Assembly: GCA_012845835.1 (NCBI GenBank)
Contig: JABAKD010000023.1
Location: 17,950,027-18,014,026, forward strand
DNA: 64,000 bases
DNA from: Undaria pinnatifida
Taxonomy: Eukaryota > Sar > Phaeophyceae > Laminariales > Alariaceae
Direction of reading: 5' to 3'
Numbering within the stretch: position 1 is the stretch's first letter; every line of letters starts with the position of its first letter. Positions 16,417 to 64,000 of the stretch are shown piece after piece. Below the pieces are notes generated by a model that did not search any database, was not told the origin of the DNA, and was given only the letters and a program-made list of their open reading frames with translations. The translations under genes and the position numbers were made by a program.

Positions 16417-16740
16417 TGTTAAATTAAAGGAGGGGGACACAGAGTGCCCCCTGCAGGTCTGCCAATTGAGCAGGTCCTCGGAGAGTACTCACTTTCGTTC
16501 CTTCGTAGAGATGTAGCTTTATTCGTTTCAACCAGAGCCCGGGATAGCTTCTGAGATCGGAGGCACGTGCCTCCGATCTAATTTCTAACTTTCCCGAATA
16601 TAAAACGCCAACCTTATCATAGTGCCTCCGATCTAATTTCTAACTTTCCCGAATATAAAACGCCAACCTTATCATACGAAACCCATCCAAATGGTCTCAA
16701 ATTCGGATACCTACAGGCCTTTCGAGGCCGTATCTTAACA
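16417..16740 (-). mobile_element. LTR of the TGTTAAG family, copy a
   Basis: In element orientation (minus) this LTR starts TGTTAAGATACGG and ends TTTAATTTAACA, giving TG...CA ends in a TGTTA/TAACA inverted repeat. It contains a TATA-like TTTATATT, an AATAAA signal and the 24-bp palindrome centred on CACGTG. It is longer than the 269-bp copies because of a 55-bp tandem duplication (16567-16621 and 16622-16676). On its 5' side in element orientation it is followed by 175 bp matching the TRIM interior, so it is a 3' LTR that has lost its partner. Confidence 0.88.
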
Positions 16741-16915
16741 CTAGCCTACCCTGATGAGTCGCATATGCAGAAATATGGGAGATTCGGGGAAACTCCGGTT
16801 ATACGAACTAGACCATGAGTCGAAGATGCGGCTCCTCAAAACCCACTCCCACACCTCTAACCGTCTGGCTATGGAGCCAGGAACACGCGAAGAAAAGCAG
16901 TAGAAAGGAAAGCAG
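16741..16915 (-). mobile_element. internal remnant adjoining LTR copy a
   Basis: This 175-bp segment (from CTAGCCTACCCTGATGAG to AAAGCAGTAGAAAG) closely matches the interior of the miniature element at 43133-43341 in reverse. Beyond 16915 the match stops, and no primer-binding site or 5' LTR follows. It is either a truncated element or part of the longer parent from which the miniature form arose. Confidence 0.85.
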
Positions 16916-16948
16916 ACCCTACAGCAAGGCAATAGTCACCCATCAAAA

Positions 16949-17046
16949 CCTGCCGCATGCCGCCGGTGTGGCGGGGGGGGCAGAAAAGGCTCTAGGACCT
17001 GCCGCATGCCGCCGGTGTGGCGGGGGGGGCAAGAAAGGCTCTACGG
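16949..17046. repeat. 49-bp tandem duplication, GC-rich
   Basis: CCTGCCGCATGCCGCCGGTG followed by TGGCGGGGGGGGCA and a purine-rich tail appears twice in tandem with period 49. The rest of 17047-17596 shows no gene. It lies beyond the 3' end of the gypsy pol and may include its 3' untranslated or LTR sequence, but no matching LTR is found at the other end. Confidence 0.8.
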
Positions 17047-17596
17047 TAAACCAACCACAGAAAAGGTACTATGGCGAGGCGAGCCCTCGTCGATATGGAG
17101 GGGAACACAGGCGCTAACACAAGGGAGAAGTCATGCGAAAAACCTCCCGCGGGCCATCGGCAAGGCGAGGGGTTAGACGAGGAAACGAGGAATACCCGGG
17201 ATGAAAGGTGTCAACACCTACAGCCCCGCTACGGGAGGAAGTGTTTAGACGAAAAAAACAAAGCAGAACAAATACAACACACAAAACATAAAAGAAGACA
17301 CACAGACCCGTACACTGGTCGCCCCCCGGCTCTGGGTTGAGGGGGGCGTCGGCAGGGCGAAAATGAACAATGACGAACAGGCGACAGCCCTGCGCCTCAG
17401 ATAGCGGCGTTTTACCCAAACCCTGAGCCGGAACTGAGCAGGGGGTTCGGCAGGACAGAAAGAAAATCAACGGAAGCACCACCCCAAAATCCGACGAAGA
17501 CTCTCAGGACACCACGAACAACCCAAAGACAAAGACGCAAAACTCATAACTCCAAATAAAAGAAGAACTATCGAGGAGCGGTGGTGGCTTGGAAAG

Positions 17597-17975
17597 TCAA
17601 CTGGCCACGGCCGCGCCTCGAGATTCGTCTACGTTACGTTGGATTCCCCGAGGAAACGCACTGGCGATGTGAACTTGCAAGCACCAAGGACCTCCTACGG
17701 CTCCCGTTGAAGTCGTGTAGCGCGCCGGGGGAAGAGGAAGTTTAATCGGTCCCGGGTGGTCCAGAAAGCGGACCAGGTATACCTTGTCCTCGGTAGGGCT
17801 CGCGCTGATTTTTCGAAGCCACCCAAAACCATCGTTTCCCTTGTACCAAAAGCGGGCTCCCTTAGGGAGTACTGTGTCGTGGTAGCGACGGAGCCAATCG
17901 GCGCGGGGAACACAGGCGTAGCCCGGCGCTAGGAAACGTTCCCCGTTGTTGCGGGAGAGCTCACGCTGTACCGCT
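17597..17975 (-). pseudogene. gypsy Pol C-terminal Tudor-like domain
   Basis: After the chromodomain, the pol frame stops at 17929, but the adjacent frame continues coherently with GYACVPRADWLRRYHDTVLP, GARFWYKGNDGFGWLRKI, VYLVRFLDHPGPIKLPLPP and YTTSTGAVGGPWCLQVH before a stop at 17597. A single-base deletion near 17970 explains the switch. The FWYK-DG-GW-I...YLVRF pattern resembles Tudor or Agenet barrels, which often read methylated histone tails or bind nucleic acid. That assignment is mine from pattern only. If correct, this element's integrase carries two chromatin-reader-like modules, perhaps for target choice. Confidence 0.6.
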
Positions 17976-20850
17976 CCGATCCGCATTCGGCGGTAAAGGC
18001 GGTTGGTTGGCGGTGCTGGTCCGGGGTTCCGGCCCAATAGCGCAAGATGTGGGAGCGGGAGAGGTGAAGGTCCATTTCCCGCTCCCAGGACGGTTCGGGG
18101 AGTCCCGCCCAATGCGTCTTGTATAGCACCGCGATGACGCCACCTCGCCCCCGTACCGACTGATGACCATTGATCTGCTCCACCTCCAGCCGTTGGAGGG
18201 GAGTCGAAACGTCGTCTTGAGTGACGTGGTACGGCGGGGACTTCTTGGAAAATATGTTGAGCACATACTGTGTCAGCCCCGTCGGTAGGTATTTGGGCAT
18301 GTCCCCGCTGTCGTGGGGGTTGGCACAGGGTTTGCAGCGCTCGATGGTCACACGCCGACGAGCGTCCGAACCAGGCAGGTCGGAAGGGAGATCCCAATAA
18401 AGGAGGTTGCTCCCGAGCGGAGAGCCGTCCGGTGTCTCGGCGGCGGAGCAGGGACCGACGGCCAGGACCTTGTATGGGCCCGTCCAGTTAAGCGCGAGTT
18501 TGGCCTTGAGTACCTTGGCGTCGGTATTCGCCTTCACACCCTGGCGGATGGTAAAGGCATAATTGTATACCCATGCCCAACCACCCACAGTGAAGTTAGG
18601 TGCTGGACGCAGCGCGTCGGCGAGGGCGGAGTTTCTGCGGTTAACACGGGAAACGGTGAGGGCGTGGTGTGCGCGGACAATGTCGTTCGCGCGCTTTTGC
18701 CGGTCGGTGGCCAAATCGCAATAGGCCAGGTGGTCACGGGCCAGACTCTGGTGTCCCACGACACCTGTGCGGTCGAAAATCGTCAGGGGGAGCCGTGGGA
18801 GTCTGCCCATGTGGACCTCGTTGGGCGTCAAACCCGTCGCCGCGCTGACAGAGTTGTTGTAAGCGAATTCTACGTGGGGCAGATGCAAGTCCCAGTCGTC
18901 TTGTCGCTCGTTGACGACCATAGCCAGCATTTGTGCCATAGTGTGATTTACCCGCTCAACGCACCCGTTACAGTTGGAATAATAGGAGCTTGTAGCAAGC
19001 TTGTGTACACCTAACAGCTGATATGCAGCTTGTGAAAGCTTGGAGCAGAACTGCAGTCCGTTGTCCGAGAGTGTGGTGCGCGGGCACCCCCACAAGGGGA
19101 TGTATTGGTTCACCAGGATATTGGCTGCACCTTCCGCGGTGAACTCAGCGTGAGTGACGGGGAACATGTCGGCCCGACGACTGAAGCGATCGGTGAACAG
19201 CAGGGTGTAGGTGTTGCCTCGTGGTGTGACCGGAAGGGGGCCGAAGTAGCCAACACTGACGGCGATACCTGGACCTTCCGGCAGAGGCATTGTGATGATG
19301 GGCCAGCGGACAGTCAGCCGTGGGGTTTTCCGCGCTTTGCACTTCAAGCAGTGGCGAAGCCACCACCAGGTGCACACACTCATGCCAATCCACCAATAAA
19401 AACGCTCCAGCATGCGCAACGTGCGCGTGGTGCCAAGGTGGCAGGAGGCCGTCGAGTGGCAAGCTTGCATGATCCAAGGGCGCATGAGCAGGGGAACGTA
19501 GATGCGAACTGGCTCGTCGTTTAGCAAGCAAGCAGCTCGCCCCACAGAGTTCGGTTTGTCAGAGCTTGTTGGCGGGAGTGTCGGGTTACGGACGTGTAGG
19601 ACGAAGTCGTCGTCGGTTGTATGTAGTCGACCCTTACCCGCCAGTGCCTGGATGCCTGAGAGGGAGGGACGCTTGGGCGAGGGGTAGCATGCCAAGAAGT
19701 CGGGTGGCAGGGCCGACGGCCGGCCGATAGAGATGTAACGTATCGTGGCGTGGCACGTCGGCTCTGCGTGTTGTTCGCGCTTCCAATCGGCATGTGAATA
19801 ACGCGCGACGGAATCCGCGAATCGCAACTCAGCAGCGTCGCCGAGGGCATCCGACCTTGTAAGTGCAGCCGGCGTTTCACCAGGAGGAGGCGTAAGCCGT
19901 AGGAGCGGAGTTCCCATAGGCTCTGCGTGGTCGTGGTCGGACGGAAGTGGTACCGTGCGGGCCGGCGGGTCGGCAAGAGTAGGGGTCGCGGCGACTGGCG
20001 GAGCCGGCCGCGGCCGTCGGGCTCGCGGCGGAGTTGTAACTCGTCTGGACGATGGCTGGGGGACCCCGCCGGGCCCGAAGCCATAGTCGACAGCAGGGGG
20101 TGCCTTACCAGCTGCTGTTGCTGAACGCCGGCGCGTCCGAGTGGAGATGCGGTCCGAAAAAGGCGTCATCGTCTGGGGCGCCGGAGATCCAGGCGAGGTT
20201 GGGACGGACGCGGTCGGGCCCATGGGCTCGACGGGGTTTGTCCCTTGTACCGAACTCCGGGAAGGAGTCGGTTGGGCCACTGATGTCGTGGCAGCCGGGG
20301 CTTCGGCGGAGTCCTCGTTGGTCACGGTGGGTACAGCAAAAACCGAATCGAAATCGTAGTCGGCTGTACGCGAGCCCCCGCTTCGGCCGGGCGAGCTATC
20401 GACGGTGGCGGTGGATGCAGAAACACGAGCGACGAATCTCCTGGAAGGAGTAGGAAGGTCGTCAAGCCTCATACGTGGCCCGTGTGTGCGAAAATCGCAA
20501 AAGTTGGCAAGAGTAAGAGGAAGCCCACCCAAGGCATTACTTTCGGTACGGGGCATTAGCCCACCCAAGCCGACACCCGGTACCGGAAAAGAAGGAGTGT
20601 ACAGCTCGCAAGCCCGTATGAGGTAAATGCCACCATCCTCAACAGGGGTAAGGCTCGTCGAACCATTGCGGCCGTGTTCCGTGGCAGTCTCCGGCAAGCA
20701 AGACAGGAAGTCAGCGTTGACGTTTGCGCTTCCTTTTCGGTATTCGAGGGTGTAATCGAATGCGGTGAGGAACTCGAGCCATCTATGGACTCGGCCGTTG
20801 TGACTCCCCACTTTGCCTATGTTTTCCAGAGCCTTGTGGTCTGAGAACAT
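17929..20850 (-). pseudogene. gypsy RNase H end, integrase and chromodomain
   Basis: A 973-codon open stretch begins within RNase H (FSDHKAL, then YRKGSANVNADFLSCLP). A long Ser/Pro/Thr-rich linker with no known domain follows. The integrase has an HHCC zinc-binding motif (HSTASCHLG ... CLKCKARK), then the core. DD35E residues are expected in VGYFGPLP, TLSDNGLQF and NGCVERVNHT. The second Asp and the Glu are present with 35 residues between them, but the first Asp is Gly (codon at 19249-19251). The C-terminal part has LEVEQINGHQSVRG, LYKTHWAGLPEPSWE and HILRYW, a chromodomain pattern. A TGA at 20851-20853 separates this from the RT. The integrase is predicted inactive. Confidence 0.93.
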
Positions 20851-21771
20851 TCAGAACTTGGTGCTCCAAAGGTAGCCGCGGAGGCGCTTGAGAGCCCAGA
20901 CGATGCTGCCAGCCTCCAAATCGAGAGGAGGCCAATGCCTTTCGGAGTCGAGCGTAGCTCGACTGATGTATGCGATGGGTTTTATGGAGCCGTCCGTCTG
21001 CTCCCGTTCGAGAGCGGCTCCGAACCCGTTGATGCAGGCATCGCAGTACACGTGGAACGGGCGTGTGCCGTCGGCGACGGCGTCCCAATCAGGGAAAACG
21101 AGGACCGGCGGGGTCGTGAGCTCCGCCAAGATTTCTCTCACCAACTTCTCCATAGCAGGCGTGAAGGCAAACTTTACCCCCTTCCGAAGGAGTGGGTTAA
21201 TAGGACGAAGTCTCTTCGATAAGTCGAGCAAAAATTTGCGGTAATAGTTGATACCACCCATGAGTGCGCGCACCTGCTTAACGTCAGTGGGCATTGGCAT
21301 ATTGGTCAATGCCGACACTTTTTCCGAATTTGGGCGTAGGCCTGCTGGAGAAATGGAGTGGCCTAGAAAGCTCGCATCGGTAGCGCCCAAAAGCTCCTTC
21401 GAGGGGGAAAGCTTGAGATTGTGCTTTCGAAGGCGTTCGAAGAGAGAGCGAATCGTCCGAACATGCGTTACCGGGTCGGAGTCGAACACGATGACATCGT
21501 CGAGGTAAGCTGCCACCTGTGTCAAGCCTTTGATCACCTCATTGATAACCTTGACGAACCACCCAGGCAAGCCGCTGCTGCCCTGAGGCATAACGAGCCA
21601 CTCATAAAGGCCCGTGGGTGTGCAGAACGCTGTAAGGGGAACTGTGTCCTTGTGTGCCGTTATCTGGTGGAACGAGGAAACCAAGTCGAACAGGGAAAAC
21701 ACCCGACCTGAGCCTAAGGAGTCCAGGACCTGGTCCACGCGCGGAATCGGCAGTTGGCTGAGCTTGCTAAT
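20851..21771 (-). pseudogene. gypsy reverse transcriptase palm and RNase H start
   Basis: This segment continues the same frame as the protease and integrase segments. Typical RT blocks are present: FSLFDLVSSFHQI with the first catalytic Asp, TAFCTPTGLYEWLVMPQG, AAYLDDVIVF with the YLDD catalytic pair, and FLGHSISPAGLRP. RNase H begins with FHVYCDACINGFGAALE. The catalytic residues of RT look intact. It is bounded by a TAA at 21772-21774 upstream and a TGA at 20851-20853 downstream. Between the TAA and the first conserved block the frame reads ISKLSQLPIPRVDQVLDSL, so the TAA is a point lesion inside the RT, not a natural end. Confidence 0.95.
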
Positions 21772-23220
21772 TTATTTGAGTTTTTTGTAGTTCACCGTGA
21801 TCCTCACACCGCCAGATTTCTTCGGGACGACCACCAGCAGGCTCGAGTACGGTGAGGTCGAGTGCTGAATCAGCCCAGCTGCGAGGTACTGGTTAAGGGT
21901 CGCGTCCACTTCTCTGGCCAGTATAGGGTTTATGCGATGGGGCCGTGAAGTGACCGGAGCGCTGCCCTCCGGAACCGAGATTTCAAAGGGCATTAGAGAG
22001 CATGACCCAAAATCCGTCTTCGAGGTGGAGAACACGTCAGAAAAGTCGCAGAGCACATCCCCCAGTTGCTCAATGGTCGGGGGGTCCCAACCAGGGTCGT
22101 GTAAGTCAAACGCAATCTCCCGCAGGTGCGGTGGGAGTCGGGCCCAGACGCGTAGAAATGCAGAACGTTGGGCTGGGTTCAAACGTTCCATAAGCGTCGG
22201 CGAGGGCGGCGGTACGGCGGGAGCTATCCCCTCCGCGTCCGTCGGGCTCGCGACCGCAGAGACCTGGCTGTCCGAAGTCTGGCCAGAGTGGGGACCCGCA
22301 GCCTTGATAGGGTGTTGCAAGGCACCCAGCCGAATGCGCAAAAGTGGGGCGTCGGCGACCCCGACAAGGTCGCCTGGCTCGAGGTCCGCGACACCTATGA
22401 CGGGAAGCCCCTGTCGTCCTGAAGCAACAAAGTGTTTCTGTCCCGAAAGAATATCCGGCTGCGGCACTATGTCGACAAGATAGTGTCCTGTAAGCGCAGG
22501 AGAGCCGTTACTGCGCACCAAGAGGACCGCGAGCAGTTGGGGCTCGTCCGACAAAGTGACACCTGTAGAGCCATCATAGCGAAGGTGGAAAGCACCGTTC
22601 GATGGTGCGGGATCGATGGCATAAGCCGCTACGCCTGCTGTGGCGTGGTGGGACAACGTCAGCTCGCCCAAAACCCGATTATTGAGAGGACGACGGGGCA
22701 GGGCGCGGTACGAACGGGTGTTGAAGCGCATCCAAATGTCGCGGCCCAGCAAGACAGCGTGCTGCATGACCGATGGAGGGACCACGCATGCCCACACCGC
22801 GAAAGAGCATGTCGGTTATTTTTCGAGGAAGAATTGAACGCTCAGACGGATGTGGGTCGCGGTCCGTAAAGGGGCGGATTCGCCAAAACCACCCCAGGAG
22901 CGAGGGCTGGTGGGCCGCTCGCACGCCGATGAGGCGGTGCCTACCGATAGCATACGATCCAACACGTCACGTCGGATGAAGGTTTGGGGCGAGCCAGTGT
23001 CAAGCAGCGCTGTACATTTGTAGGGCGCAATGGCGTCTCCTCCGCTATGTACTGCAATATCGGTAGTGAAGAATCGTCGTCCAGCGTCACGGTACCCCCG
23101 ACGAGGCAGGGGCCATGTTCTGGAAGTGCGCGGTCTGAGGCGCGGCGAGAACCTATCGCCAAAACCTCCGGGCTTTGATCGGCGGGTGTACCCGAAAAAT
23201 AGGCCGAAAGAGGGCCTTGG
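21772..23220 (-). pseudogene. gypsy aspartic protease and RT amino-terminal region
   Basis: The pol frame opens after a TGA near 23221. The protease has CTALLDTGSPQTF, the retroviral-type D-T-G-S active site (around 23000), and AVLLGRDIWMRF toward its end. A TAA at 22816-22818 lies between these blocks. The region then runs into the RT N-terminus (PFEISVPEGSAPVTSRPHRI, VVVPKKSGGVRITVNYKKLK). The NADAR frame and the protease frame differ by one base; the switch lies near 23035, where a single-base deletion would join them. No convincing slippery heptamer is visible, so I favour mutation over programmed frameshifting. Confidence 0.9.
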
Positions 23221-24789
23221 TCAGCGCCGACCGCGGTCCCCAAGCGCGACTGCTGAGCGGACAAAATTTCGTGGATTCCAGCATTCCCCGTGGGCCTGCG
23301 AAATCGACGAGGGGAGGCCGGGTGTGGCGATCCGTCCTCGCTGTCGCGAATTGCTTCGCGAACGGCAGAGAGTGCCTCACCGAGCAAATTTTGTCCTCTC
23401 CACTTGTGTGGATCCTTGGCGTGGGGGTCGTCCGCCCGGAGACCTATACCCCACACTGTGTCTAGAGGACTGGCCTCTGCCAGAAATTTGTTGCCAGTGC
23501 TCAAAAGATGATTTTTCATGGCTGGGTTCTGCGTAAATTTGGCATAGTTGCCAGATAACACGGCATTTTGCTTCTCCCTGTCCTAAACGGCGGTGTCAAA
23601 GTTGCGCACGCCTCGACCGACGCGTTTGTGTGTGCTAGGGTCAGACGATGACATGATGAGCTCCACTGCGCAATGGTCTTTAAAAAGCCGAGCCTTTTCA
23701 GCCATCATAAACTGCTCCGCGCAAGAATATGAGACGTCGTCGACGACAAACGACGAAGGAGACCACTGCGAGAAAAAGGACGGCGGTTGCCAGAACAACA
23801 CTACTTTGCCTGTAGAGTATTCGAGGGAAGGGTCAAAAGTCAACGGTGCCAACCCGTCGGAGGCCGTGTTAGGCATATGAGCTTGTAATGTCCCCGTCTG
23901 GGGACACCAGTCTCTGGCACATTGGGCCTGCAGCGTCCCCGTCTGGGAACGCCCGGCCTCGGGAGCACGGCGCGAGCCCGAACCCACGGGTGGTCGCGTC
24001 GTGGCCTTGTCGCTCTTTGGCGTAAAATCGCAAGGAACTGCTCTCACTGCACCCGAAGGGACAGGGGGCTCGGAGCTGTTACTGCTTGACGAGAGGCGCG
24101 ATTCTTCCGTATCTTCACGGGAATAGCGTCCAGCTGATCGGGCTGGAGGCCGTGGCGTCACCACTGGCCCGTTGCGCAGTGTCGGATCTATATCCTGTGC
24201 CACTGGGGCAGACGTAGCCTGGTGCACGTGGGTTAGCGTGCTTAAAGACGGAGCAGGGCCCGTAGACCCTGTGGGCGTCTTCGAGAGCGGGGCTCGGGCA
24301 AGTGGAAATAAATTCTTCGCCCGAGGGGGCTCCTTCCCGTTAGCCCTCTTGGAGGAGAGAGACGAGGTAGCTAAGCTTGTCGGCTCCTCCTTGATGGGAA
24401 AAAGGATAGAGCGCCCGCCACTATCGCGAGGAGACACTGGATCAAATCTTGGAAAAGATCTCGGTGCATATGGGTTGGCTTTCCCACACCTCAAACCAAC
24501 CGCCGCTTTACGGTCAGGAAGAGGTGGAGACGAACCCGCTCGCATATGGGGGCGACGCGTCGTCGCCGCAGTCTTCTTGCTGCGAGACGCGTGCCGGGGG
24601 GGAGCATGCAAGGTGCAGGCTCCTGAGTCATGGTTGAGGGGGGCAGCATTAGGGGCGCATGCCTCCGTTGTCGAGCTTGAGCCACGGCAGGGGTTAACGG
24701 CGTTGGAAGCGCTGGTCCCCATTGCCGAACTCGGACCATGATCGAGGGGGGCGTCGCTGTGGGCGCGCACGCCCTTCGTAGAAAATGTA
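22941..24789 (-). pseudogene. Ser/Pro-rich spacer and NADAR domain of the gypsy polyprotein
   Basis: About 320 disordered Ser/Pro/Arg-rich residues precede a NADAR (YbiA/DUF1768-like) domain at 23346-23807. It has VVLFWQPPSFFSQWSPSSF, SYSCAEQFMMAEKARLFKD, KRVGRGVRNFD, then GNYAKFTQNPAM, LAEASPLDTVWGIGL and WRGQNLLGEALSAVREAI. These match the family's FW..S..SNW, AEQ-MMAEKA, GR.V..F, KF.QN, L.EASP.D..WGIG and W.G.N.LG blocks in order. A TAG at 23583-23585 stands where the family has a conserved Trp, so it is TGG to TAG. Known NADARs include an N-glycosidase of riboflavin-pathway intermediates and enzymes removing ADP-ribose from guanine. The domain lies in the retroelement's own reading direction, just before the protease, so it looks like a polyprotein part and not a chance neighbour. 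Confidence 0.88.
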
Positions 24790-27226
24790 TGAGCGATGGC
24801 CGAAATCGGGTACACCCGATTGACCTATGGCCGTTATCGGGTACCCCTTGAACACACAGTCCCACAACGACTCAGGACGACACCTCATTGGTCGAAACCA
24901 CACCGCATCCGAACGCAGCCGCATGTCCATCGGGTGTACCCGATTATGGCTGAACAAGTCCTCGACATGTACCCGACTCGCATACGAGCCACCCGATTAT
25001 GGCCGGACTACTCGACCACCAGCCCACACGCTCACACGCACGCGCAGCGGGCGCGAACTCGCGCCACGTCACGAGGCGGGGCATTGTTTGTTCTTTCGTC
25101 TCGGAGGTCTTTTTTTCCGGAGCTCTTTTTCCGGAGCTCTTTTTCGTGGACCTTGAAGTCGCAGTTAGGCCATTTCTTACGCAGTCGGATACCGCCAGTC
25201 GAAAACGGCCCTTTTCGACTGGATTCTTCTGGTCCTTCTTCTTCACGTCAATCGAGCCGATTTCTTATTCTTATCGTCAGTCGAGCCGATTTTATAGTTT
25301 TGGTGCTCTTCCTAGAGGCGGTTGGTGTGAGGGAGTACTGCTGTACAGCAGTCGAGAGCTCTTTTTCCGGAGCTCTATTTTGTGGCTTGTGAGACCCCGC
25401 TCCGCTCACGCCGGCGCGCCCAACCTCAGCCACAGCAGTAGTGATGTGCGACAACGGCCAGCCGCCTGGCCAGGCGCAGGCCCTCGAGGAAGGAGCGTGG
25501 TTTCAAGACACGAAGAGCTTACGAGCAGCCGCGGGCGAGATGTTCGCTGAGGCAGGGCGCTCTTTCGTCGCCGCACCCCAAATATTTTTCCCGTGTGGGA
25601 CGGCGACCAGGGACGGCGCTACGAGGAACACCAGCGACAGCCGAGTACACACAAAATTGGCAAAACAACGCAACAACATGTGCACGAATATACATGAGAC
25701 TCCACACATAACATGAAGCACTGCTGTGTACAGGACTGCTGGATTTTGGCCATTGCAAAACTAATTCCTATGTAAGAGAGGTAAAAGCACGACCCACAGA
25801 GCTTTTCCTGAAAACGGCGTCCCTGCAGGTCACCTATTAGCGAGACCAAGGAAATCATGTGACTCAAATCATTTGATCAAATCATTTCTCGGGGTGTGAT
25901 GTGACAGGTGGCGGCAGTACATTTCTCGGGCCCGACACGCCACGAACATATCTCCCTGTCTGTGCCATTTCGAAAGGAGCATCTATCTGAATCGTTAGCC
26001 TTTTTTGTGCCGTGTCCGAGCCCAGGTAGTCTGTGATCTGTCTAAACCGTCTGCATAGATGCGCTTCTGTGCCTTATGTGTAAGGGGTGCTAAGGCCATT
26101 TATTATGCAGTCGGATGTGTTTTCGACTGAAGCCCAAATCGAGCTTTCTTACGCAGTCGAAAAAGGGCTTTTTTGACCAAACTTTTTTCGACTGAGAATT
26201 CCGACTGGATACTCCAGTCGAAAATCTCAGTCAAAAAAGTTTTTTACGTGTTTTTTGAACCGATCGCATCGCTCATCCCACCACCAAACACACACCCACA
26301 CGGCCACACGGCCACACACCCATACCAGGTACCACACTGCAGTACCATACAAGGCGTTCACGCTGGCTTCGCTATCCCAGCTGTTGCTTCTCGCAGCAAG
26401 TCAGCATGGCGCATTTCTAGTTTTGCTCGCCAGCAGCGTGTATCACACGACGGCAGAAGCGCGCGGTCTCGATCCCATGCGGCCAACAACGGCTGCGGCT
26501 GCTGTAGCCTTGGCGGCTCTCGGCTGAGTGCAACTCCACGAACGTAGCTTTGGCGGCTTTCGGCTAAGCCCAAAGCCACCAACTCGCTGGGACGAGGGTT
26601 CGTCGAGCCGTTGCTCGCGAAGAAAGCGCGAAGCACAGAGCTGCCAACCGATTTCGAATTTCGACTGCTGCTGCTGTACAGCAGTACTGTACTCCCTCAC
26701 ACCAACCGCCTCTAGGAAGAGCACCAAAAAAACCATAAAATCGGCTCGACTGACGGTAAGAATAAGAAATCGGCTCGACTGACGTTAAGAAGAAGGACCA
26801 GAAGAATCCAGTCGAAAAGGGCCGTTTTCGACTGGCGGTATCCGACTGCGTAAGAAATGGCCTAACTGCGACTTCAAGGTCCACGAAAAAGAGCTCCGGA
26901 AAAAAAGAGCTCCGAGACGAAAGAACAAACAATGCTCCGCCTCGTGACGTGGCGCGAGTTCGCGCCCGCTGCGCGTGCGTGTGAGCGTGTGGGCTGGTGG
27001 TCGAGTAGTCCGGCCATAATCGGATGGCTTGTATGCGAGTCGGGTACATGTCAAGGACTTGTTCAGCCATAATCGGGTACACTCGATGGACATGCGGCTG
27101 CGTTCGGATGCGGTGTGGTTTCGACCAATGAGATGTCGTCCTGAGTCGTTGTGGGACTGTGTGTTCAAGGGGTACCCGATAACGGCCATAGGTCAATCGG
27201 GTGTACCCGATTTCGGCCATCGCTCA
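24790..27226. mobile_element. long-TIR DNA element inserted in the gypsy element
   Basis: Two nearly identical arms of about 560 bp face each other at 24790-25354 and 26660-27226, each starting TGAGCGATGGCCGAAATCGG. The insertion is flanked by a 7-8-bp target duplication, AAATGTA (AAAATGTA with one ambiguous base), at 24783-24789 and 27227-27233. Arms carry iterated TCGGGTAC or GTACCCGA motifs. The 1.3-kb centre has AGTCGAAAA-type phrases and no transposase motif, so it is probably non-autonomous. Frames in the two arms look alike only because the arms are copies. TIR and target-site length would fit hAT-like or Mutator-like mobilisation, which cannot be decided here. Confidence 0.9.
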
Positions 27227-27233
27227 AAATGTA

Positions 27234-28205
27234 ACCTGGCTGGGGGGGGCATGCTGGGAGCGCTGGTCCCCACCGCCGGCACTGTGCCGTGAAAGTCATC
27301 AGGCGACGTAGGAGCCCGTGGGCCCTTGACTGAAATAGTTTGTGCCGCGCCACGTGTAAGGCGAACGACAGGCACTCGAGCATCTTGTGAAAGCAAAGGA
27401 AGTGTCCCCGACAGTGCCGTCGGCGTACGGGTCGGGTGTGCCGTATCGCCGTCGCCCTGTCAGTTGCCAGTGCGAAAGGTACCCGGTTGGCGCGCGTTGG
27501 GGTTTCCGCTCGGATTGTGGGTTGCCCCGAAACGCTTCCCCGGAGCAGACACGGAAGCCGAGGAGGCTGGCGAGTGCGGGACAGCACCATGTTGGCCAGG
27601 CGTGTATGTGCTGTTGTTGTTACCGCTGTGGCTGTTTGTCTGTCCCTGGTCCCGTGGGTACCCTCGTGATTGGTTCGAACGATTTCGGCGATTTTTGTTG
27701 AACGTTTGCGAGCGAGAAGACCGTCCGTCGCGGCGGTAGCTAACCATACGTGCTTGCCACCGTCGGAAAACGTCATCATCGCCAAGTTGGCCGAGTTCAG
27801 GGTTTAGACAGCCGCTGGCGTTGATAAAGGGATGCCTACAGTTGCGTAAGGAGTGAGTGTCTTCTTGACAGTTGAGGCAATGACCCCTGTTTTCTCGGAG
27901 AGCCGCGGCGCGGGCAGAGGGCGTGAGGAGGCCGCTCCAGAGGGGAGGGTCGTCGGTCTTAAACGAGGCACTAACAGCGAAAACTTCAGCATAGTGTTGT
28001 TCTTCTAGGGGCCAGCAGTTGGACATTTTGTGGAGCCAGGGGTCGGTGGAATCAACAATCGGCATGGCAATCGGATTATGGCTCGAACCCGTCTGCCAAG
28101 AAGGCGACTGGGACAGCACTCGGCCCTGGCCGCGCCCATGAACGGCGGGCCGGGGCCCCGAGGGGGCGGATGACCGCGATCCCGTCGAAGAAACAGGTAG
28201 AGAAA
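27234..28205 (-). pseudogene. gypsy Gag nucleocapsid region
   Basis: In element order this follows the capsid-like region. It contains HCLNCQEDTHSLRNCRHPF, a zinc knuckle with the canonical C-x2-C-x4-H-x4-C spacing, followed by basic, Asn/Ser/Arg-rich sequence (RRDGRSSRSQTFNKNRRNRS) that would bind RNA. The frame is shifted by one base from the capsid frame; the switch sits at a T-run near 28205, where loss of one T suffices. A TGA at 27460-27462 interrupts the region, and the same frame continues beyond it toward the TIR insertion. Confidence 0.85.
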
Positions 28206-28793
28206 AATGTTTTCGCCGTTGACGGAAGGTGTCTTATTGTGCGCCAAGTCACTAAACGCTTTCCACATGGCATCTAACGAGGCGTATGGCCGTGGGTCCG
28301 TAGCCTTCGAGCCAGGGTATAACGTAGGCATGAGCGTCGGAAACTGCTCGTTGACCGCCATCCTAACCACCTCCAGCACGACATCCGTCCCCGGGGACAA
28401 AACACGCTCACTCCCCGTGACTGCCGATACTAGCACACGGAACTCCCGACTGAAATCAGAAAAAGGCGTGCCGTTACACACTCCCAAAGTGTGCAACTTA
28501 GTGTGGCCTTCGCCCGTGTCGACCCGGTCAAAGTGCGTCACGAGCAGGCGTAGCAGGAGGGTGAAAGCCTCGGGCCCAGATGCTCCTCCGTCCAACGCTC
28601 TTGACACCTGTCCAAAGAAATCGTCGATCAAGGTGGTCATGCGAGCGGTCGTGGGCCTGTCAGGTGTTATGGCACGGTTGAATGCCAGGCGGAGGGGGTG
28701 GATCCAACCGGGAACCCACGTTGGGGCACGTACGCCCTCTTGGCGACGGTCGTCACAGCGCATGAGTATGTCAGTCATGGCAGACCGAACCGA
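28206..28793 (-). pseudogene. gypsy Gag capsid-like region
   Basis: The frame beginning near MTDILMRCDDRRQEGVR reads WVPGWIHPLRLAFNRAI, LIDDFFGQVSRALDGG, FTLLLRLLVTHFDRVDTG, FSDFSREFRVLVSAVTGSE and LDAMWKAFSDLAHNKTP. It is mostly helical in character and sits between an acidic/basic N-terminal Gag part and a CCHC knuckle, as a capsid should. I cannot match it to a named capsid family by eye. It is out of frame with the upstream part because of a 16-bp tandem duplication at 28794-28825. Confidence 0.75.
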
Positions 28794-28825
28794 ACGCGTG
28801 AGTTGCTGTACGCGTGAGTTGCTGT
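28794..28825. repeat. 16-bp tandem duplication causing a frameshift
   Basis: ACGCGTGAGTTGCTGT occurs twice in immediate succession (28794-28809, 28810-28825). Removing one copy brings the upstream Gag frame and the capsid frame into register. This is a direct explanation of that frameshift, typical of replication slippage. Confidence 0.9.
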
Positions 28826-30424
28826 GTGCCGTCAGACTTGTTCAAAGAGGCGGGGAACGATAGCACAGAAATGCGTGATACGTCCTTGTGGGAGAGCTTA
28901 ACATGGGCACGCCTAACCGAGTCATTGAGCGTGGATTTAGCTAAAGCCGCGGCGGTAGCAAGTTCGGCGGTACACTCACGGGCCGAATCCGAAGAAACAG
29001 GCTTGGTGTGGTCACCCGACGCAGTTAGTTTGCTCAGCCGATCGGCGGAAGAGGCAATATCCACCAGGGAAGGAGTTACTTGCCTGTTGCCAGCTACCAC
29101 TGTCACCTCGCCGTGGTCCGTGTTCGAGCTCAAAGACGAGCGGGAGGACGTTGACGAGTCGTCCCACGCTGAGCGCCCTCGTGTTTTCGCCGTCCTCCGG
29201 TGCCTCCTCCCGAGCTGCGACCGCCGCCCCGGTTGGTTCGGGCCTGGTTGCTCCCTTGGCGGCGCTGTGGGCCACCACCAGTACCCGACGTTTCCCTCCC
29301 GCGCTTCCACCACCGTTGCCACCACCGCGGCGTTTGTGGTGGCCACCACTCCCACCACTTTCCCCGTTTCCCCCACTCTGGCCGCCACCACCCTCGGAGT
29401 TACCACCTCCACGGTTGCGGTCCCCCCGATCACGGCTGCCACTGCACCGCTGTTTGGTGGAGCGCCTTCCTTCCAGCGCTTCCTTTGGAGTCGGCCACAG
29501 GACTGGGTTAGGGGCGTCGTCGTGGGCCAATCTTAAGGCTTTGACCACAGCGAGGGTAGGTGCTCGCCTCATCTGCCCGAAGGCGGACGAGTTGTCGCGG
29601 CGAGCCCAGACTGCTCCGACCGAAAGGCCTTCGGCCTTGAACGACTACCGTCGCTCCGAAGTTAGAAGGGCCGTGGCCGCTGCTATGACCGCCTCCGCCA
29701 GATGCGCCGAGAACTCGACCCTCGGCGTGGTAGCCATGTATTGGACGCTGCCAGACATGAAAACGTCGTCCCCGGGTCGTGTCTCTTGGGAGGCAACACC
29801 CAGCGGGCGCGCCGAGGAAGGAGTAGCTCTCGCTGGAGTCGATGTAGCTGAGAGGGCAACGGCTTGGCGTGCCCTGTCTACCGCGCGGGACGCCTCGCGA
29901 GCAGCGGCCCTCGCTTGATCGATGGCGTGATCCTCACGGCGTCGACGTTCGTCATCGAGCCGTCTGCGTTCCTCTCGCCGAAGCAGGGTCGCGTTGGCTT
30001 CGTCGAGAGCTCTTTGGGCCCGACAAAATTCAGACTCTGAGTCTGAGGGGCCGGCATCGGAGCGCTGGTCTCCGTAGCTCTGGGGAAGGCGCTCTGTCGA
30101 GCGCGGAGAGGTCAAATGTCGACGGTGGTGCTCTGAGGACAGCTGGAGATGCCCCCTCGAGGTTGGGGATATTTGTCGTCGTGATGTCTCCGCGCCCGGT
30201 TGGAGTTTTTCCACCTCGTCGACCGGCGAGTCGGGGTGGTCGGTCGGTGTGCCGTGTTGTTGACTCGTGTTGGAGTCACTATCGTCGTCAAGGTTTTCGG
30301 CGCGTCCTCCTCGTCTCGATTCGCGGGACCTCGAGCGTTCCCGTTCTTCTCCCTGGGCCTCCTGGATGGGGCGCGTGGAGGACCTCAGCCTGCCCGTGTA
30401 GCCCCCATCGTCACTGGTGGACAT
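28826..30424 (-). pseudogene. gypsy Gag amino-terminal region
   Basis: The likely start is the ATG at 30422-30424 (MSTSDDGGYTGRLRSSTRP). A charged Arg/Glu/Ser-rich segment follows, with a helical, coiled-coil-prone part containing RRALDEANATLLRREERRR-like sequence, ending LLTSERR at a TAG (29645-29647). The same frame reopens directly with SFKAEGLSVGAVWARRD and runs into a Gly-rich stretch (GGNGESGGSGGHHKRRGGG), so the TAG is a point lesion. A +1 frame change near 29150 then leads to WDDSSTSSRSSLSS and GNRQVTPSLVDIASSADRL. The family of this region is not recognised. Confidence 0.75.
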
Positions 30425-30600
30425 GGTGCTTAGGTGTAGTGTAGGGGGGGGGGGGGGGGGGGGGGGCGGGATAGGAACGACGCGTGAAGAAGCTATGGAG
30501 ACAGATAAATTGTCGTGGTGTTCCTGCTCCAAGTAGCGGTATATCTGTGTTTCAGCAAACAGCAACATATGGGCCTCGACTCCGTCCAGCATCAGTGATG
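30425..30600. repeat. Gag leader with satellite motif and G23 run
   Basis: Directly upstream of the Gag start lies TTAGGTGTAGTGTAGG, the core of the 84-bp satellite, followed by 23 G at 30444-30466. About 135 bp of unique sequence then separates this from the degenerate edge of array B. No LTR or certain primer-binding site is visible. Confidence 0.8.
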
Positions 30601-33600
30601 GTAGCAGCCACGCCAACTAGCCGTAAAAAAGGAGTACAGCAGCAAAAAGGTACCAACCATCAAAACCAAAACATAAGAGCAGCGCCCAGTCTGACCGTAG
30701 GGTATATGGGTAACGCCCGCACGAACCGCAGTAAAAGCAGCCAAAACTGGGCAGCACTGACCCTAACCGCAGTGCAGGGGGTGCAACACAGTAAAGGTAC
30801 GTCTGCAGCCATCGCACTTGAACAGGCACCATTCGACCTAGCGGGGGGGGTAGCACAGGAAAGCGTCGCCCAAAACGCCCACGCTCATCGTACCAAAACA
30901 GGCAGCATTTAACCTAGGTGCAGTATAGGGGGTAGCACAATAAAGGTTCGCCCAACACGCCGACGCTCATCGCACCAAAACAGGCAGCGTTTAACCTAGG
31001 TGTAGCGTAGGAGGTAGCACAGTAAGGGTCGCCCAACACGCTGACACTCATCGCACCAAAACAGGCAGCATTTAACCTAAGTGTAGTGTAGGGGTGGAAG
31101 CACAATGAAGGGTCGCCCAACACGCCGACACTCATCGCACCAAAACAGGCAGCATTTAACCTAGGTGTAGTGTAGGGGGGTAGCACAGTGAAGGGTCACC
31201 CAACACGCCGACACTCATCGCACCAAAACAGGCAGCATTTAACCTAGGTGTAGTGTAGGGGTGGAAGCACAGGGAAAGGTCACCCAACACGCCGACACTC
31301 ATCGCACCAACACAGGCAGCATTTAACCTAGGTGTAGTGTAGAGGTGGAAGCACAGTGACGGGTCGCCCAACACGCTGACACTCATCGCACCAAAACAGG
31401 CAGCATTTAACCTAGGTGCAGTGTAGGGGGGCAGCACAGTGAAAGGTCACCCAACACGCTGACACTCATCGCACCAACACAGGCAGCATTTAACCTAGGT
31501 GTAGTGTAGGGGTGGAAGCATAGTGAAGAGTCGCCCAACACGCTGACACTCATCGCACCAACACAGGCAGCATTTAACCTAGGTGTAGTGTAGGGGTGGA
31601 AGCACAGTGAAGGGTCGCCCAACACGCTGATACTCATCGCACCAAAACAGGCAGCATTTAACCTAGGTGTAGTGAAGGGGGGTAGCACAGTGAAAGGTCA
31701 CCCAACACGCCGACGCTCATCGCACCAAAACAGGCAGCGTTTAACCTAGGTGTAGCGTAGGAGGTAGCACAGTAAGGGTCGCCCAACACGCTGACACTCA
31801 TCGCACCAAAACAGGCAGCATTTAACCTAAGTGTAGTGTAGGGGTGGAAGCACAATGAAGGGTCGCCCAACACGCCGACACTCATCGCACCAAAACAGGC
31901 AGCATTTAACCTAGGTGTAGTGTAGGGGGGTAGCACAGTGAAGGGTCACCCAACACGCCGACACTCATCGCACCAAAACAGGCAGCATTTAACCTAGGTG
32001 TAGTGTAGGGGGGTAGCACAGGGAAAGGTCACCCAACACGCCGACACTCATCGCACCAACACAGGCAGCATTTAACCTAGGTGTAGTGTAGGGGTGGAAG
32101 CACAGTAAGGGTCGCCCAACACGCTGACACTCATCGCACCAAAACAGGCAGCATTTAACCTAAGTGTAGTGTAGGGGTGGAAGCACAATGAAGGGTCGCC
32201 CAACACGCCGACACTCATCGCACCAAAACAGGCAGCATTTAACCTAGGTGTAGTGTAGGGGGGTAGCACAGTGAAGGGTCACCCAACACGCCGACACTCA
32301 TCGCACCAAAACAGGCAGCATTTAACCTAGGTGTAGTGTAGGGGGGTAGCACAGGGAAAGGTCACCCAACACGCCGACACTCATCGCACCAACACAGGCA
32401 GCATTTAACCTAGGTGTAGTATAGGGGTGGAAGCACAGTGACGGGTCGCCCAACACGCTGACACTCATCGCACCAAAACAGGCAGCATTTAACCTAGGTG
32501 CAGTGTAGGGGGGCAGCACAGTGAAAGGTCACCCAACACGCTGACACTCATCGCACCAACACAGGCAGCATTTAACCTAGGTGTAGTGTAGGGGTGGAAG
32601 CATAGTGAAGAGTCGCCCAACACGCTGACACTCATCGCACCAAAACAGGCAGCGTTTAACCTAGGTGTAGTGTAGGGGTGGAAGCACAGTGAAGGGTCGC
32701 CCAACACGCTGATACTCATCGCACCAAAACAGGCAGCATTTAACCTAGGTGTAGTGTAGGGGGGTAGCACAGGGAAAGGTCACCCAACACGCCGACACTC
32801 ATCGCACCAAAACAGGCAGCATTTAACCTAGGTGTAGCGTAGGGGTGGAAGCACAGTGAAGGGTCGCCCAACACGCCGACACTCATCGCACCAAAACAGG
32901 CAGCATTTAACCTAGGTGCAGTGTAGGGGGGCAGCACAGTGAAAGGTCACCCAACACGCTGACACTCATCGCACCAAAACAAGCAGCATTTAACCTGAGT
33001 GTAGTGTAGGGGTGGAAGCATAGTGAAGAGTCGCCCAACACGCTGACACTCAATCGAACCAAAACAGGCAGCATTGCCCCTAGGTGTAGTGTAGGGGTGG
33101 AAGCACAGTGAAGGGTCGCCCAACACGCTGATACTCATCGCACCAAAACGGGCAGCATTTAACCTAGGTGTAGTGTATGGGGGTAGCACAGTGAAAGGTC
33201 ACCCAACACGCCGACACTCATCGCACTAAAACAGGCAGCATTTAACCTAGGTGTAGTGTAGGGGTGGAAGCACAGTGAAAGGTCACCACCCAACACGCTG
33301 ACACTCATCGCACCAACACAGGCAGCATTTAACCTAGGTGTAGTGTAGGGGTGGAAGCACAGTGAAGGGTCGCCCAACACGCCGTATATAAAAAAAAAAA
33401 AAACGGCAGCATCTGCCCCAACGGTAGTGTAGGGGGGGGGGGGGGTAGCACAGTGAAGGATCGCGCCGCCAACCGTATTAAAACGGGCAGCATCTGCCCC
33501 CACAGTAGTGTAGGGGGGGGTAGGACAATAAAGGTTCGCGCACCAACCGTATGAAAAAAGGGCAGTATAACCCCCCCAAACAAGGTAGTTTCCCCCGACC

Positions 33601-33970
33601 GCACTATAGGGGGACGGTCGCGCCTACAGTATTGCTGATTGCTGCAGTATCACTGCTGTGTTGAGAGGAAACGGCAATTTCAACCGCACCAAGATGGGTA
33701 GTGTAGTACCAACACCAGCTGTAGAAAAATGTGCACGCCCACAGTCGAATAGAAAGGCTGTTTGCCCCCAAAGGTACCGCATCAAACGGGCTGATCTCCA
33801 CTGCACTATTAAAAGCTGTGAAGCGCAGTATCTCCGCGAACTGTGTAGTAAGCGCTCTGTAACGGGCAGTAGCTGTCCGAACATGTGCAAAGAAGAAATA
33901 AAAAATCCCAGCGTAGACCCTAGCATTATCGTGAAGGGCAGCACATGTACCAGCAGGAAGACGGCCTAAC
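30601..33970. repeat. 84-bp tandem satellite, array B
   Basis: About 30 well-preserved units (30850-33370) are flanked on both sides by progressively degenerate ones: 30601-30850, and 33371-33970 where only phrases such as GGCAGCATCTGCCCC and AGTGTAGGGGGGG remain. Core units carry GTGAAGGGTCGCCC and CTCATCGCACC, distinct from array A. Multi-unit duplication is visible: CAGGCAGCGTTTAACC recurs 750 bp apart (9 units), CATAGTGAAGAGTCG recurs at spacings of about 1082 and 418 bp (13 and 5 units). Open minus-strand frames of 28-residue period follow from unit length. No gene is inferred. Confidence 0.95.
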
Positions 33971-34400
33971 GCCCGGACAGCTGAAAAAAAAAAAATCCGT
34001 ACCCACTCCCACCGATAAAGGGACAGTTACGTTGACAGCAGTGCAGAGTGCCGCACTGTCACAGCTGTGCATACACAGAAAATGGTATTATAGTCCCCGC
34101 GTACCCATGAATGGTGGAATGTAGGGCATCGCACACACCAACAGCCTTGCCCAAAAAAGCCAGCACAGAGTTTCAGCGTTCACTAGATTCAAGTTCTAGT
34201 CACGGGGGGGCCAGGACGAAAAAAAAAACTCTCGAATCGAACTTGCAAGGAGTACTCGCACAGCAGTGGAGGGTGTCAGAGCTGCGGTGCTGTAACTGTG
34301 GACGCTGGGTCAGTGAAGGTTCGAGCTATATGGTGGATGGGCAGGAGCAAAGTAGGCCGCTTGGCTGCTGTACAGTGACTTCTACAGCAGAGAATCCGGC
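33971..34400. other. no gene
   Basis: Low-complexity A-runs and short CAGCAGTG/CTGCTGTAC phrases; no motif or element end. The boundary with the LTR remnant interior to the right is not sharp. Confidence 0.4.
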
Positions 34401-35494
34401 GGTATATGGCAGGCATTGACACCGAGCCCATTGTGCTGCACTGTAGCTGGTACCTCTGCAAAAATGATGGTGGTTGAAGCTACGCGACGCACAGCAGTAG
34501 TGGAACGCTGTTGATCGAGAAAGATCGGAGAGGGATCCGAGGTGCGTCAAATTAGTAGCAGTACTAATTTCGGCAGAAAGGGAGCAGCTGTTTGTTCGAC
34601 GCTCAAGACGGATCGACGTACGTACTGAAACCCATACGATAACGCGTGTACTGGAAAATTCGCCAAACGAAAAAAATCCAAACATTCCACGAGCACCGCC
34701 TGTTCCTTCCCAGGTAGGATCACAAGGAAAGAGCCCCGACATGAGCTTCTAGAGCACGGTGCCCGTAGTCCAAGGGGGTCCCGCGAAGGGCGGTCTGGCT
34801 CCGACAGCAAAGGTGTACGCTGGTCGATGGGCTCTCTCAGCAAGCGAAGTCCCCGTCGAAGGTCATTCGAAGGGTTGATTCCAGTATGCTTGTCCGTGGC
34901 GTGTCGTGCACATGCCTCAGAGCCCCAAAGCGCAAAAAAAAGTACAAGTCGATGGCCGATCTTGGGGCTTGTGCTGGCAACTCGCGGAGATGTGCTGCGC
35001 AACATGCTGGCAGAGCGCGGAGCAAACAAGTCTGATGGGTGGGGCTCGGGCAGTTCCACTGCGGAGTGGTCTATGACCAGCTGGCGGTGAACTGATGCGA
35101 CCAAAGGCCGGGACGAGGAGTGTGCTCCGAAGAGCAGTGTCGTCCGCACGTACTCTGAAGGTGTCCTCTGTGTGGTGCGTGCCAAGCAACCAACAGGAGG
35201 GACCAAAATTCGAGACGAGGAGTGTGCTCCGCAGAGCAGTGTCGTCCGCACGTACTTAGAAGGTGTCGTCCATGTGGTACGTGCCCGGCGACCAACAGGA
35301 GGGGCCCCTGCCATCTCACTGCTGGTGTGGTCGCCGTTGTAGGAGGAAGGGCGCTCCCTCCATTGAGAAGCCACCCGAGAAGGAACAGGGGTTATGGGCT
35401 CGATGGAAAGCAAAAGCAAAATCGCTACGAAAAAAAAATCGGAGAGATTGGAAGAACGCTGCCACAATAGCATATCAAGCTCGTCGACGCCACA
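34401..35494 (-). mobile_element. interior of a truncated LTR element
   Basis: Just inside LTR copy b, in element orientation, comes TGTGGCGTCGACGAGCTTGA, matching the start of the TRIM interior and fitting a primer-binding site that begins with TGG. A 323-codon frame runs to 34547, but it enters from the LTR without ATG and shows no Gag or Pol motif. A tandem duplication of about 105-110 bp is at roughly 35108-35320 (GACGAGGAGTGTGCTCCG, GTCGTCCGCACGTACT). No 3' LTR is found to the left, so the element is truncated and its left limit is arbitrary. Confidence 0.55.
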
Positions 35495-35763
35495 TGTTAA
35501 ATTAAATGAGGGGGACACAGAGTGCCCCCTGCAGGTCTGCCAATTGAGCAGGTCCTCGGAGAGTACTCACTTTCGTTCCTTCGTAGAGATGTAGCTTTAT
35601 TCGTTTCAACCAGAGCCCGGGATAGCTTCTGCGATCGGAGGCACGTGCCTGCGATCTACTTCCTAACTTTCCCGAATATAAAACGCCAACCTTAACATAC
35701 GAAACCCATCCAAATGGTCTCAAATTCGGATACCTACAGGCCTTTCGAGGCCGTATCATAACA
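35495..35763 (-). mobile_element. LTR of the TGTTAAG family, copy b
   Basis: This 269-bp LTR, inverted relative to the window, has TGTTA...TAACA ends and the same TATA-like, AATAAA and palindrome elements as the other copies, though one palindrome base is changed. The putative primer-binding site lies immediately downstream in element orientation, so it is a 5' LTR. Confidence 0.9.
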
Positions 35764-36624
35764 CGTACGATATCGTACCAGGAAGTTCGTTAGGAAAATA
35801 CTCGGCACACAACCGAAATCAAGTATTATCTTTCGGAGATGGCGAATTCGTTCTCAATTCCTTCCCTCTTTAATGCGTGAGGAAAAATGGTTGATTGAAA
35901 ATGAACTAAAGTACCAAATTGCTGTACATACGACAGACAGAAAATACGGCTGTCGCAAGCAAGCGCTAGCTACTGCGGACATAATCTATTATCAACCCGT
36001 CAAGCGTCCTGCATCCCGTGCCTTGTAACCTGTTGATCAGCAGAGCTACCATACCACACGCAATCACATTCGCCGGTGGTTGGGGCGAGAGGGGCTGGGG
36101 GTCAGGCACAATCATTTATCCTGCCCGTCTCTCTGCCCAAGCTACTCTGTCCTTTGCTATGATTCAACGCGAAAAACAAAGTCTTGACAACAAATAATGC
36201 GAAAGAAAATGATCGCCTCAGCCGCAAAGAGTAACATGTCATCGCTACGTCAGTCACATACTGCTGTCGTATACCAGGTAGTTAGCAGCATTTCATATTA
36301 CTCCGCATGTATTTTCACACAGGAAACGTCCACTACCTGCTGTTTTACTCTAGAAACAAGACAAAGCCCAGACAAGAACAATTTTTCGTAACATGACCTG
36401 TGGTTGTTGCCTCAGTCTGGTGCAAACGGTGAGAAGGATTCTCCACCTGGGTGTCCGTGCCTCCCACACCCAGCGTCCTCCACCGCAACCAGTCACCTTG
36501 TGCCGACCCCAACCCGGGCCCACACATCAACGGGCTCAGCAGCCGCCGCTCCCACGGAGCACAGCAGATACTGCTGTAATTTGGTTTCGCAACCAAATCT
36601 GCGAGCCATCCCTTCTCCCCCGTC
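35764..36624. other. no gene
   Basis: The first half is AT-rich, the second half is C-rich and precedes the coiled-coil candidate's 3' end. No domain motif is seen; 36393-36620 may be 3' untranslated sequence of that candidate. Confidence 0.4.
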
Positions 36625-43610: not shown

Positions 43611-43621
43611 CTACATACACC

Positions 43622-63955: not shown

Positions 63956-64000
63956 TAACTAATTTTCAAGGACGTCAGCCGTGAGTTCGACGAATTTCAG

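Follow-up and report, generated by a model that had tools for sequence, protein, structure and literature searches.

A stretch of 64,000 nucleotides from the genome of the kelp Undaria pinnatifida (assembly GCA_012845835.1, contig JABAKD010000023.1, positions 17,950,027 to 18,014,026 of the forward strand; 'the window' in what follows, meaning that stretch at its full length) harbors, on its minus strand, a copy of a Ty3/Gypsy retroelement with a domain of the NADAR family (PF08719) in its Pol polyprotein, at 23346-23795. The architecture of this element, its recurrence, a clade of reverse transcriptase (RT) sequences shared with elements of Ectocarpus, the conservation of catalytic residues, signs of purifying selection and the presence of young insertions were all observed. 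We propose that the window contains a broken copy of an element that makes NADAR by readthrough, carries it in the particle, and uses it either to clear ADP-ribose from guanine or to counter a host defense; taken as a whole, this account has in our judgment about an even chance of being correct.

A NADAR domain within a multi-copy Gypsy element

An initial annotation of the window had described NADAR motifs in family order within a Ty3/Gypsy polyprotein, and all of the motifs that it listed were found in that order. A comparison of the PF08719 profile (Pfam cut-off 35.1 bits) with the two open pieces of the region, on the minus strand, gave matches to both, at profile positions 2-83 (57.1 bits, E 3.4e-15) and 87-163 (90.4 bits, E 1.9e-25), and a profile search of the genome (for which the control gave matches in three of 14 named genomes) recovered the domain as a single match of 166.5 bits, above the cut-off, at 17973372-17973821 of its contig and with one internal TAG. 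That a genuine NADAR domain sits within the Pol of a Ty3/Gypsy element was likewise upheld. The TAG lies in frame at 23583-23585, at a site equivalent in the alignment to W89 of the Phytophthora nicotianae enzyme, a residue described as being among those that bind the ADP-ribose pyrophosphate (PMC11543638); E43, K50 and E125 are retained. Past NADAR the reading frame changes ahead of the DTGS region, and because the DTGS open frame downstream sits in this other frame, the window copy is broken and makes no intact Pol. The position that had been assigned to NADAR, just upstream of a DTGS protease, stands with respect to order, the two lying in different frames in this copy; the CCHC Gag that had been placed before it is present as a Gag end (27460-28233), but a 2.4-kb inverted-repeat insertion at 24790-27226 lies between it and NADAR.

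The assembly searched comprises 511,146,479 bp in 68 contigs, and contains at least 150 NADAR matches (150 of 1454 first-look candidates were scored, and 150 of 150 exceeded the Pfam cut-off), 22 of which are found in uninterrupted open frames of at least 2,000 amino acids. Eighteen loci with a NADAR stretch, chosen from this list of matches, were tested for RT, and it accompanies NADAR, downstream, in every one; a nineteenth, L015, holds the 3' portion of a copy that has its NADAR in L016. Pairs of long terminal repeats (LTRs) were assigned in two of seven paired copies, C18 (274 bp, 99.6% identical) and C30a (267 bp, 100% identical), and in none of the other five. The element family is multi-copy, was mobile until recently, and includes young insertions.

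Two subfamilies display RVT_1, RT_RNaseH, H2C2 and rve domains in Ty3/Gypsy order. Subfamily A possesses a Gag frame of 1019 amino acids (in C18 and C29; it is shorter in C30a and C30b) and a Pol frame of 2473 amino acids, comprising a leader of approximately 400 residues (with no Pfam family in that of C30a), NADAR, a DTGS protease recognized by its motif, RT, RNase H, H2C2 and rve integrase; its NADAR scores 176.2 bits over profile positions 2-163, as expected of a member of the NADAR superfamily of YbiA type. Subfamily B has a frame of 2371 amino acids with the same domain order and a NADAR of 166.6 bits. Subfamily C appears to be old, because its closest relatives are about 80% identical or less over the full domain and most of them have stops or short frames.

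Catalytic residues, selection and fold

The family to which the initial annotation had assigned the domain includes enzymes that remove ADP-ribose from guanine, and the catalytic residues of those hydrolases, E43, K50 and E125, were found to be conserved across 31 element NADARs: E43 and K50 each in 30 of 30 (one row being gapped at both), and E125 in 30 of 31. W89, D130, R79 and a phenylalanine at position 84 are present in all 31, K75 in 30 and W133 in 29. All eight of the residues that were checked in kelp copies are retained in 20 of 24, the exceptions being L023, L024, L032 and the window copy. An AlphaFold model of the element NADAR is confident (pLDDT 94.3), and its sequence matches the structures of the P. 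nicotianae NADAR (8bau, 1.9e-14) and of E. coli YbiA (2b3w, 2.8e-4). The domain is a bona fide YbiA-type NADAR, and apparently an intact enzyme in open-frame copies, for which an active guanine-ADP-ribose hydrolase is the best reading of the sequence.

Rates of nonsynonymous (dN) and synonymous (dS) change in NADAR were compared between subfamilies, and dN proved to lie well below dS wherever the latter was unsaturated: 0.21 versus 1.45 for A-D, 0.43 versus 1.45 for B-C, and 0.52 versus 1.91 for B-D, corresponding to dN/dS ratios of approximately 0.15, 0.30 and 0.27, respectively, where subfamilies C and D are represented by one copy each with a shortened frame, which may inflate dN. The A-B and A-C values for NADAR were not used as ratios because dS was saturated. 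For comparison, RNase H (B-C) gave a ratio of 0.13, and integrase (A-B) one of 0.12. Identity between A and B was 0.49 for NADAR, 0.80 for RT, 0.47 for the linker and protease, and 0.28 for the leader; by these comparisons NADAR is under constraint, more loosely than RT but more tightly than the leader.

The boundary between Gag and Pol

In 10 of the 12 copies examined (five of subfamily A, including L022, four of subfamily B, and that of the window), a TGA lies in frame between Gag and the NADAR-led Pol; the Gag/Pol junction motif was not found in the remaining two, L019 and L024. In six copies (four of A and two of B) no further stop is met between the UGA and the limit of the retrieved piece; in C28 that open piece includes NADAR, and for the other five the genome search gives a frame open through NADAR. 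From this arrangement we infer readthrough of the UGA at the end of Gag, and because Pol follows the stop, the enzyme would be made at the level of Pol and would travel with RNA and RT. A structured readthrough signal 3' of the UGA was considered and rejected, because the sequence folds like shuffled sequence.

Relatives and age of the lineage

A protein search with the protease-RT part yielded 149 matches, 120 of which were listed; together with two others, 122 proteins were classified. Among relatives at least 44% identical over protease-RT, 50 carry NADAR (in some cases partially), 49 have too little sequence upstream, and three have room for the domain and lack it, such that NADAR is found in 50 of the 53 that show it or have space for it. 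The three are P0163, which carries a Helitron domain, P0168, whose gene model looks chimeric, and P0173, in which the leader runs straight into the protease; the first two were discounted as gene-model artefacts on account of those features. None of the 20 relatives below 44% identity has NADAR, a contrast that is weak because only five of the 20 have at least 240 amino acids upstream.

A tree of RT-RNase H, made by a quick method from 92 of the 120 rows (28 were left out for short alignment), contains a clade of 73 rows on a long branch (SH-aLRT 100), with P0179, P0180 and P0173 at its base; P0179 and P0180 are too short for NADAR to be judged. All 26 rows marked for NADAR fall within a clade of 70 rows (SH-aLRT 95) that is shared with Ectocarpus elements and in which P0163 and P0168 are nested, and P0173, the relative that lacks NADAR, branches outside it. 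Ectocarpus-named rows appear at several places in the RT clade, with kelp subfamilies between them, and because of this scatter the NADAR-Gypsy lineage probably predates the split between Ectocarpus and kelp, barring horizontal transfer. The recurrence in related elements that the initial annotation had looked to was therefore found across copies and species, and the relatives without the domain, to which it had also pointed, amount to three in 53: two odd gene models and one basal relative.

Origin of the NADAR domain

The nearest stand-alone NADARs are brown-algal (Ectocarpus, Scytosiphon and Pylaiella) and bacterial. Among the matches listed, bacterial sequences from Nannocystis, Polyangia and Planctomycetota come first (56-61% identity), with Bacteroidota and Clostridia close behind, and the former three are the closest named cellular relatives outside brown algae. 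A description of Ectocarpus elements likewise reports NADAR matches that are almost exclusively bacterial, and proposes horizontal transfer (PMC12477816). A viral donor was considered and set aside, the seven IMG/VR relatives that were found being 46-51% identical, below the best bacterial ones. No family common to the neighborhoods of bacterial NADARs was found in 10 neighboring frames at six loci, hand-picked from the frames of 10 loci. In a search of the kelp genome for a host stand-alone NADAR, using P0092 of Ectocarpus as query, none of the best 150 of 1679 candidates exceeded 57% identity, although introns could hide an orthologue, and the top matches were element NADAR copies. Among other long proteins, P0004 combines NADAR with WD40, and P0007, P0008 and P0012 combine it with PF10021/PF03747, both of which we take to be ADP-ribose hydrolase families.

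There may have been several gains or exchanges of NADAR in the history of the Gypsy lineage, a possibility that concerns origin and is compatible with the proposed function. When the tree of NADARs was enlarged, stand-alone NADARs from bacteria and brown algae came out among those of the elements, and the constraint of a single element clade costs 8.7 log units and is marginally rejected (p-AU 0.033). A first tree, however, did not reject such a clade (p-AU 0.46), the domain is short with long branches, and the rows of the larger tree were picked after the first had been seen; repeated gain is a real possibility, but in our judgment less likely than not.

Proposed function and its alternatives

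NADARs are described as hydrolysing ADP-ribosyl-guanine in DNA (PMC11543638), and on RNA, according to one study, they are the only hydrolase family that removes ADP-ribose from guanine (PMC11833690). In the mechanism that we propose, ribosomes would continue past the UGA that closes Gag, such that NADAR would be made only as part of Gag-Pol; the enzyme would be delivered at Pol levels into the particle, alongside RNA and RT; and there it would strip ADP-ribose off guanines of the element's RNA (or cDNA), leaving a template that RT could copy. Alternatively, it might counter an ADP-ribosylation defense of the host. The removal of adducts from template guanines would be the simplest use of such an enzyme, and the countering of a defense the bolder one. 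The strongest version, in which brown algae ADP-ribosylate the guanines of retroelements and the packaged NADAR is an onboard eraser, a counter-defense kept since before the Ectocarpus-kelp split, appears unlikely to us.

Several observations weigh against this account. The activity and substrate of the element NADAR are predictions from its sequence, D86 and R93, which contact ADP-ribose in the P. nicotianae enzyme, vary among element NADARs, and the domain evolves faster than RT, its pace being close to that of the linker with the protease. L021, L022 and L023, which carry NADAR on the same piece, lose the open frame between the UGA and NADAR, and no stable RNA structure follows the UGA, where the fold of 121 nucleotides is no better than shuffles (z -1.08 in A and 0.33 in B). 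The protease is recognized by motif only. A search of the genome for writer enzymes, covering the DarT and PARP families, gave no DarT match (the control matched in one of 14 genomes) and a single PARP match, of 33.6 bits against a cut-off of 26.7, at profile positions 10-62 only.

The domain might instead act on small molecules, such as free ADP-ribose derivatives, NAD-linked signals or riboflavin intermediates, and not on the nucleic acid of the element. YbiA of E. coli is described as cleaving riboflavin intermediates (PMC11543638), viral NADARs are proposed at one point of PMC9503650 to favor soluble ADP-ribose derivatives, and the element NADAR is a compact domain (a basic extension was not looked for). 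The same paper, however, also argues that the NADARs of RNA-virus polyproteins target mainly macromolecular ADP-ribosylation (PMC9503650), the members of one tested NADAR panel were reported to be active, without exception, on guanosine-ADP-ribosylated RNA (PMC11833690), and its position in Pol links the domain to RNA, RT and cDNA; a small-molecule substrate therefore seems somewhat unlikely. That NADAR is now a binding or structural module, for instance a reader of ADP-ribose or RNA for targeting or packaging whose chemistry has become irrelevant, would agree with its evolving faster than RT and with an A-B pN/pS of 0.49, versus 0.52 for the linker and protease region, but is quite improbable given the near invariance of E43, K50 and E125 over 31 element NADARs from divergent families. 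Finally, a one-off fragment of a host NADAR, captured by a dead element or mis-assembled into it, was a possibility that the initial annotation had itself raised and that would suit the broken state of the window copy, but it can be dismissed in view of at least 150 genome matches, full-length frames, two other subfamilies, Ectocarpus homologues, RT at 18 of 18 loci and NADAR in 50 of 53 relatives.

To our knowledge, it is uncommon for a retroelement to acquire an additional enzyme in Pol and retain it. A NADAR with catalytic residues conserved across a divergent element lineage points to a recurring chemical insult upon element RNA or DNA, and the eraser, if real, would represent a retroelement counter-defense by which the element's genome stays readable. 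What eukaryotic NADARs do has been described as unclear (PMC11125620), and the element offers a handle on the question of whether nucleic-acid ADP-ribosylation operates in brown algae; the abundance of copies, the intact frames of two subfamilies and the existence of a relative without NADAR render the proposal testable.

Structure of the element in the window

The element extends over 16417-35763 on the minus strand, with TG..CA LTRs and a 4-bp target duplication, CGTA. Its parts, in the element's own direction, are as follows.

35494-35763, minus strand: 5' LTR, from repeat comparison, with CGTA on its outer side
30844-33384, no strand assigned: array of an 83-bp minisatellite, within the element's 5' untranslated region
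27460-30616, minus strand: remains of Gag, divided among several open frames and bearing a CX2CX4HX4C knuckle close to its end
27460-27462, minus strand: in-frame UGA at the Gag/Pol boundary, read as TGA in the window
23796-24789, resuming at 27227-27459 beyond an insertion, minus strand: Ser/Pro-rich Pol leader between the UGA and NADAR, with no Pfam match
24790-27226, no strand assigned: fold-back element inserted in Pol, with inverted arms of approximately 560 bp and an 8-bp target duplication, AAAATGTA
23346-23795, minus strand: NADAR domain, from Pfam, genome search and alignment, with the TAG at 23583-23585
22816-23220, minus strand: DTGS aspartic-protease region, an open frame with ALLDTGSPQTF, in a frame that differs from that of NADAR
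20851-22815, minus strand: RT and RNase H, split between separate open pieces (PF00078 2.2e-20, PF17919 2.8e-21 and PF17917 1.7e-18 on 20851-21771)
17929-20850, minus strand: C-terminal part of Pol, with H2C2 zinc domain (PF17921, 1.2e-10) and rve core of integrase (PF00665, 3e-5)
16417-16745, minus strand: 3' LTR, with an internal 55-bp duplication and CGTA outside, matching the 274-bp LTRs of C18

The order of these parts follows that of copy C18, with 90.5-97% identity over the four longest distinct blocks, and the Pol leader is 97% identical to that of C18. The LTRs carry TGTTAA at one terminus and either AACA or CACA at the opposite one, and are flanked by 4-bp duplications (CGTA in the window and CTAC in C18); the direct repeats of the 3' LTR, of 206 and 120 nucleotides, are 97% and 96% identical to 35494-35764. 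Two bases past the 5' LTR, where a tRNA primer-binding site would lie, the sequence reads TGGCGTCGTCGAGC. The open frames of Gag are 27460-28233, 28774-29532 and 29648-30616, the latter two assigned by position only, and no Pfam family exceeds its cut-off in these pieces. In Pol, no Pfam family matched the protease region of the window at E 0.01, and that of subfamily B gave a weak match to Asp_protease_2 (E 0.078, under the cut-off); the DTG(S) motif is what we take to denote an aspartic protease. No Pfam family matched 21772-22815, which was assigned to the RT/RNase H stretch by position, and PF00665 scores 24.7 bits in the window, below its cut-off of 32.6, versus 33.5 in C30a and 33.3 in C25, above it.

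Because C18 and C30a also have the 83-bp minisatellite between the 5' LTR and gag, it is part of the element. An array at the left end of the window (1-999), 81-90% identical to this minisatellite, runs as far as a gap of 500 N (1001-1500), and satellite arrays may be seeded by the element. The arms of the fold-back element begin TGAGCGATGG, and it is perhaps hAT-like. Extra copies of the LTR, on the opposite strand at 42889-43614 and 91-98% identical, are likely solo or partial LTRs, and a 4.35-kb inverted repeat (8157-12483 and 59654-63956, 89.5% identical), which flanks the central part of the window, is probably another transposable element.

Comparison with known systems

Some retroviral Pol proteins carry a dUTPase, an accessory nucleotide-related enzyme whose role that of NADAR would resemble; its fold and chemistry are unrelated, and the likeness is one of analogy only. 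DarT-NADAR toxin-antitoxin systems pair the hydrolase with the DarT transferase, whereas no such partner was found for the element NADAR, and no ADP-ribosyltransferase family was present among the Pfam matches of the element's Gag and Pol pieces. The P. nicotianae NADAR (8bau) and E. coli YbiA (2b3w) belong to the same family, with E43, K50 and E125 aligned, but stand alone, outside any Pol. The NADARs of positive-strand RNA viruses are likewise embedded in a polymerase polyprotein, as PMC9503650 describes them, and those viruses do not reverse transcribe. Among retroelements, Tx1 LINEs of Crassostrea gigas also carry a YbiA-family NADAR but, as described in PMC12477816, they are non-LTR elements with a divergent domain located in ORF1.

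The closest counterpart is a Gypsy lineage of Ectocarpus, Gypsy-12_Ec32, described in September 2025 with NADAR likewise at the N-terminus of Pol and with a suggested role in RNA processing (PMC12477816); polyproteins named Ectocarpus, P0002 among them, share an RT clade with the kelp elements. Among the titles listed in literature searches, PMC12477816 is the one paper found to report such a fusion. The initial annotation knew of no described Gypsy lineage with this domain, which that description corrects, and because the same fusion is reported there, the NADAR-Gypsy element is already a known kind, and not a first. The Ectocarpus lineage is credited with a putative C-terminal chromodomain (PMC12477816), whereas Pfam detected none at E 0.1 or better in the Pol ends of kelp subfamilies A and B, and gave a weak match (0.098) in the relative P0180. 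The terms 'stop codon', 'readthrough' and 'frameshift' do not occur in the main text of that paper. Relative to what it describes, the present analysis adds a kelp member of the lineage, the UGA arrangement, the conservation of residues, the evidence of selection, and P0173 as a basal relative without NADAR.
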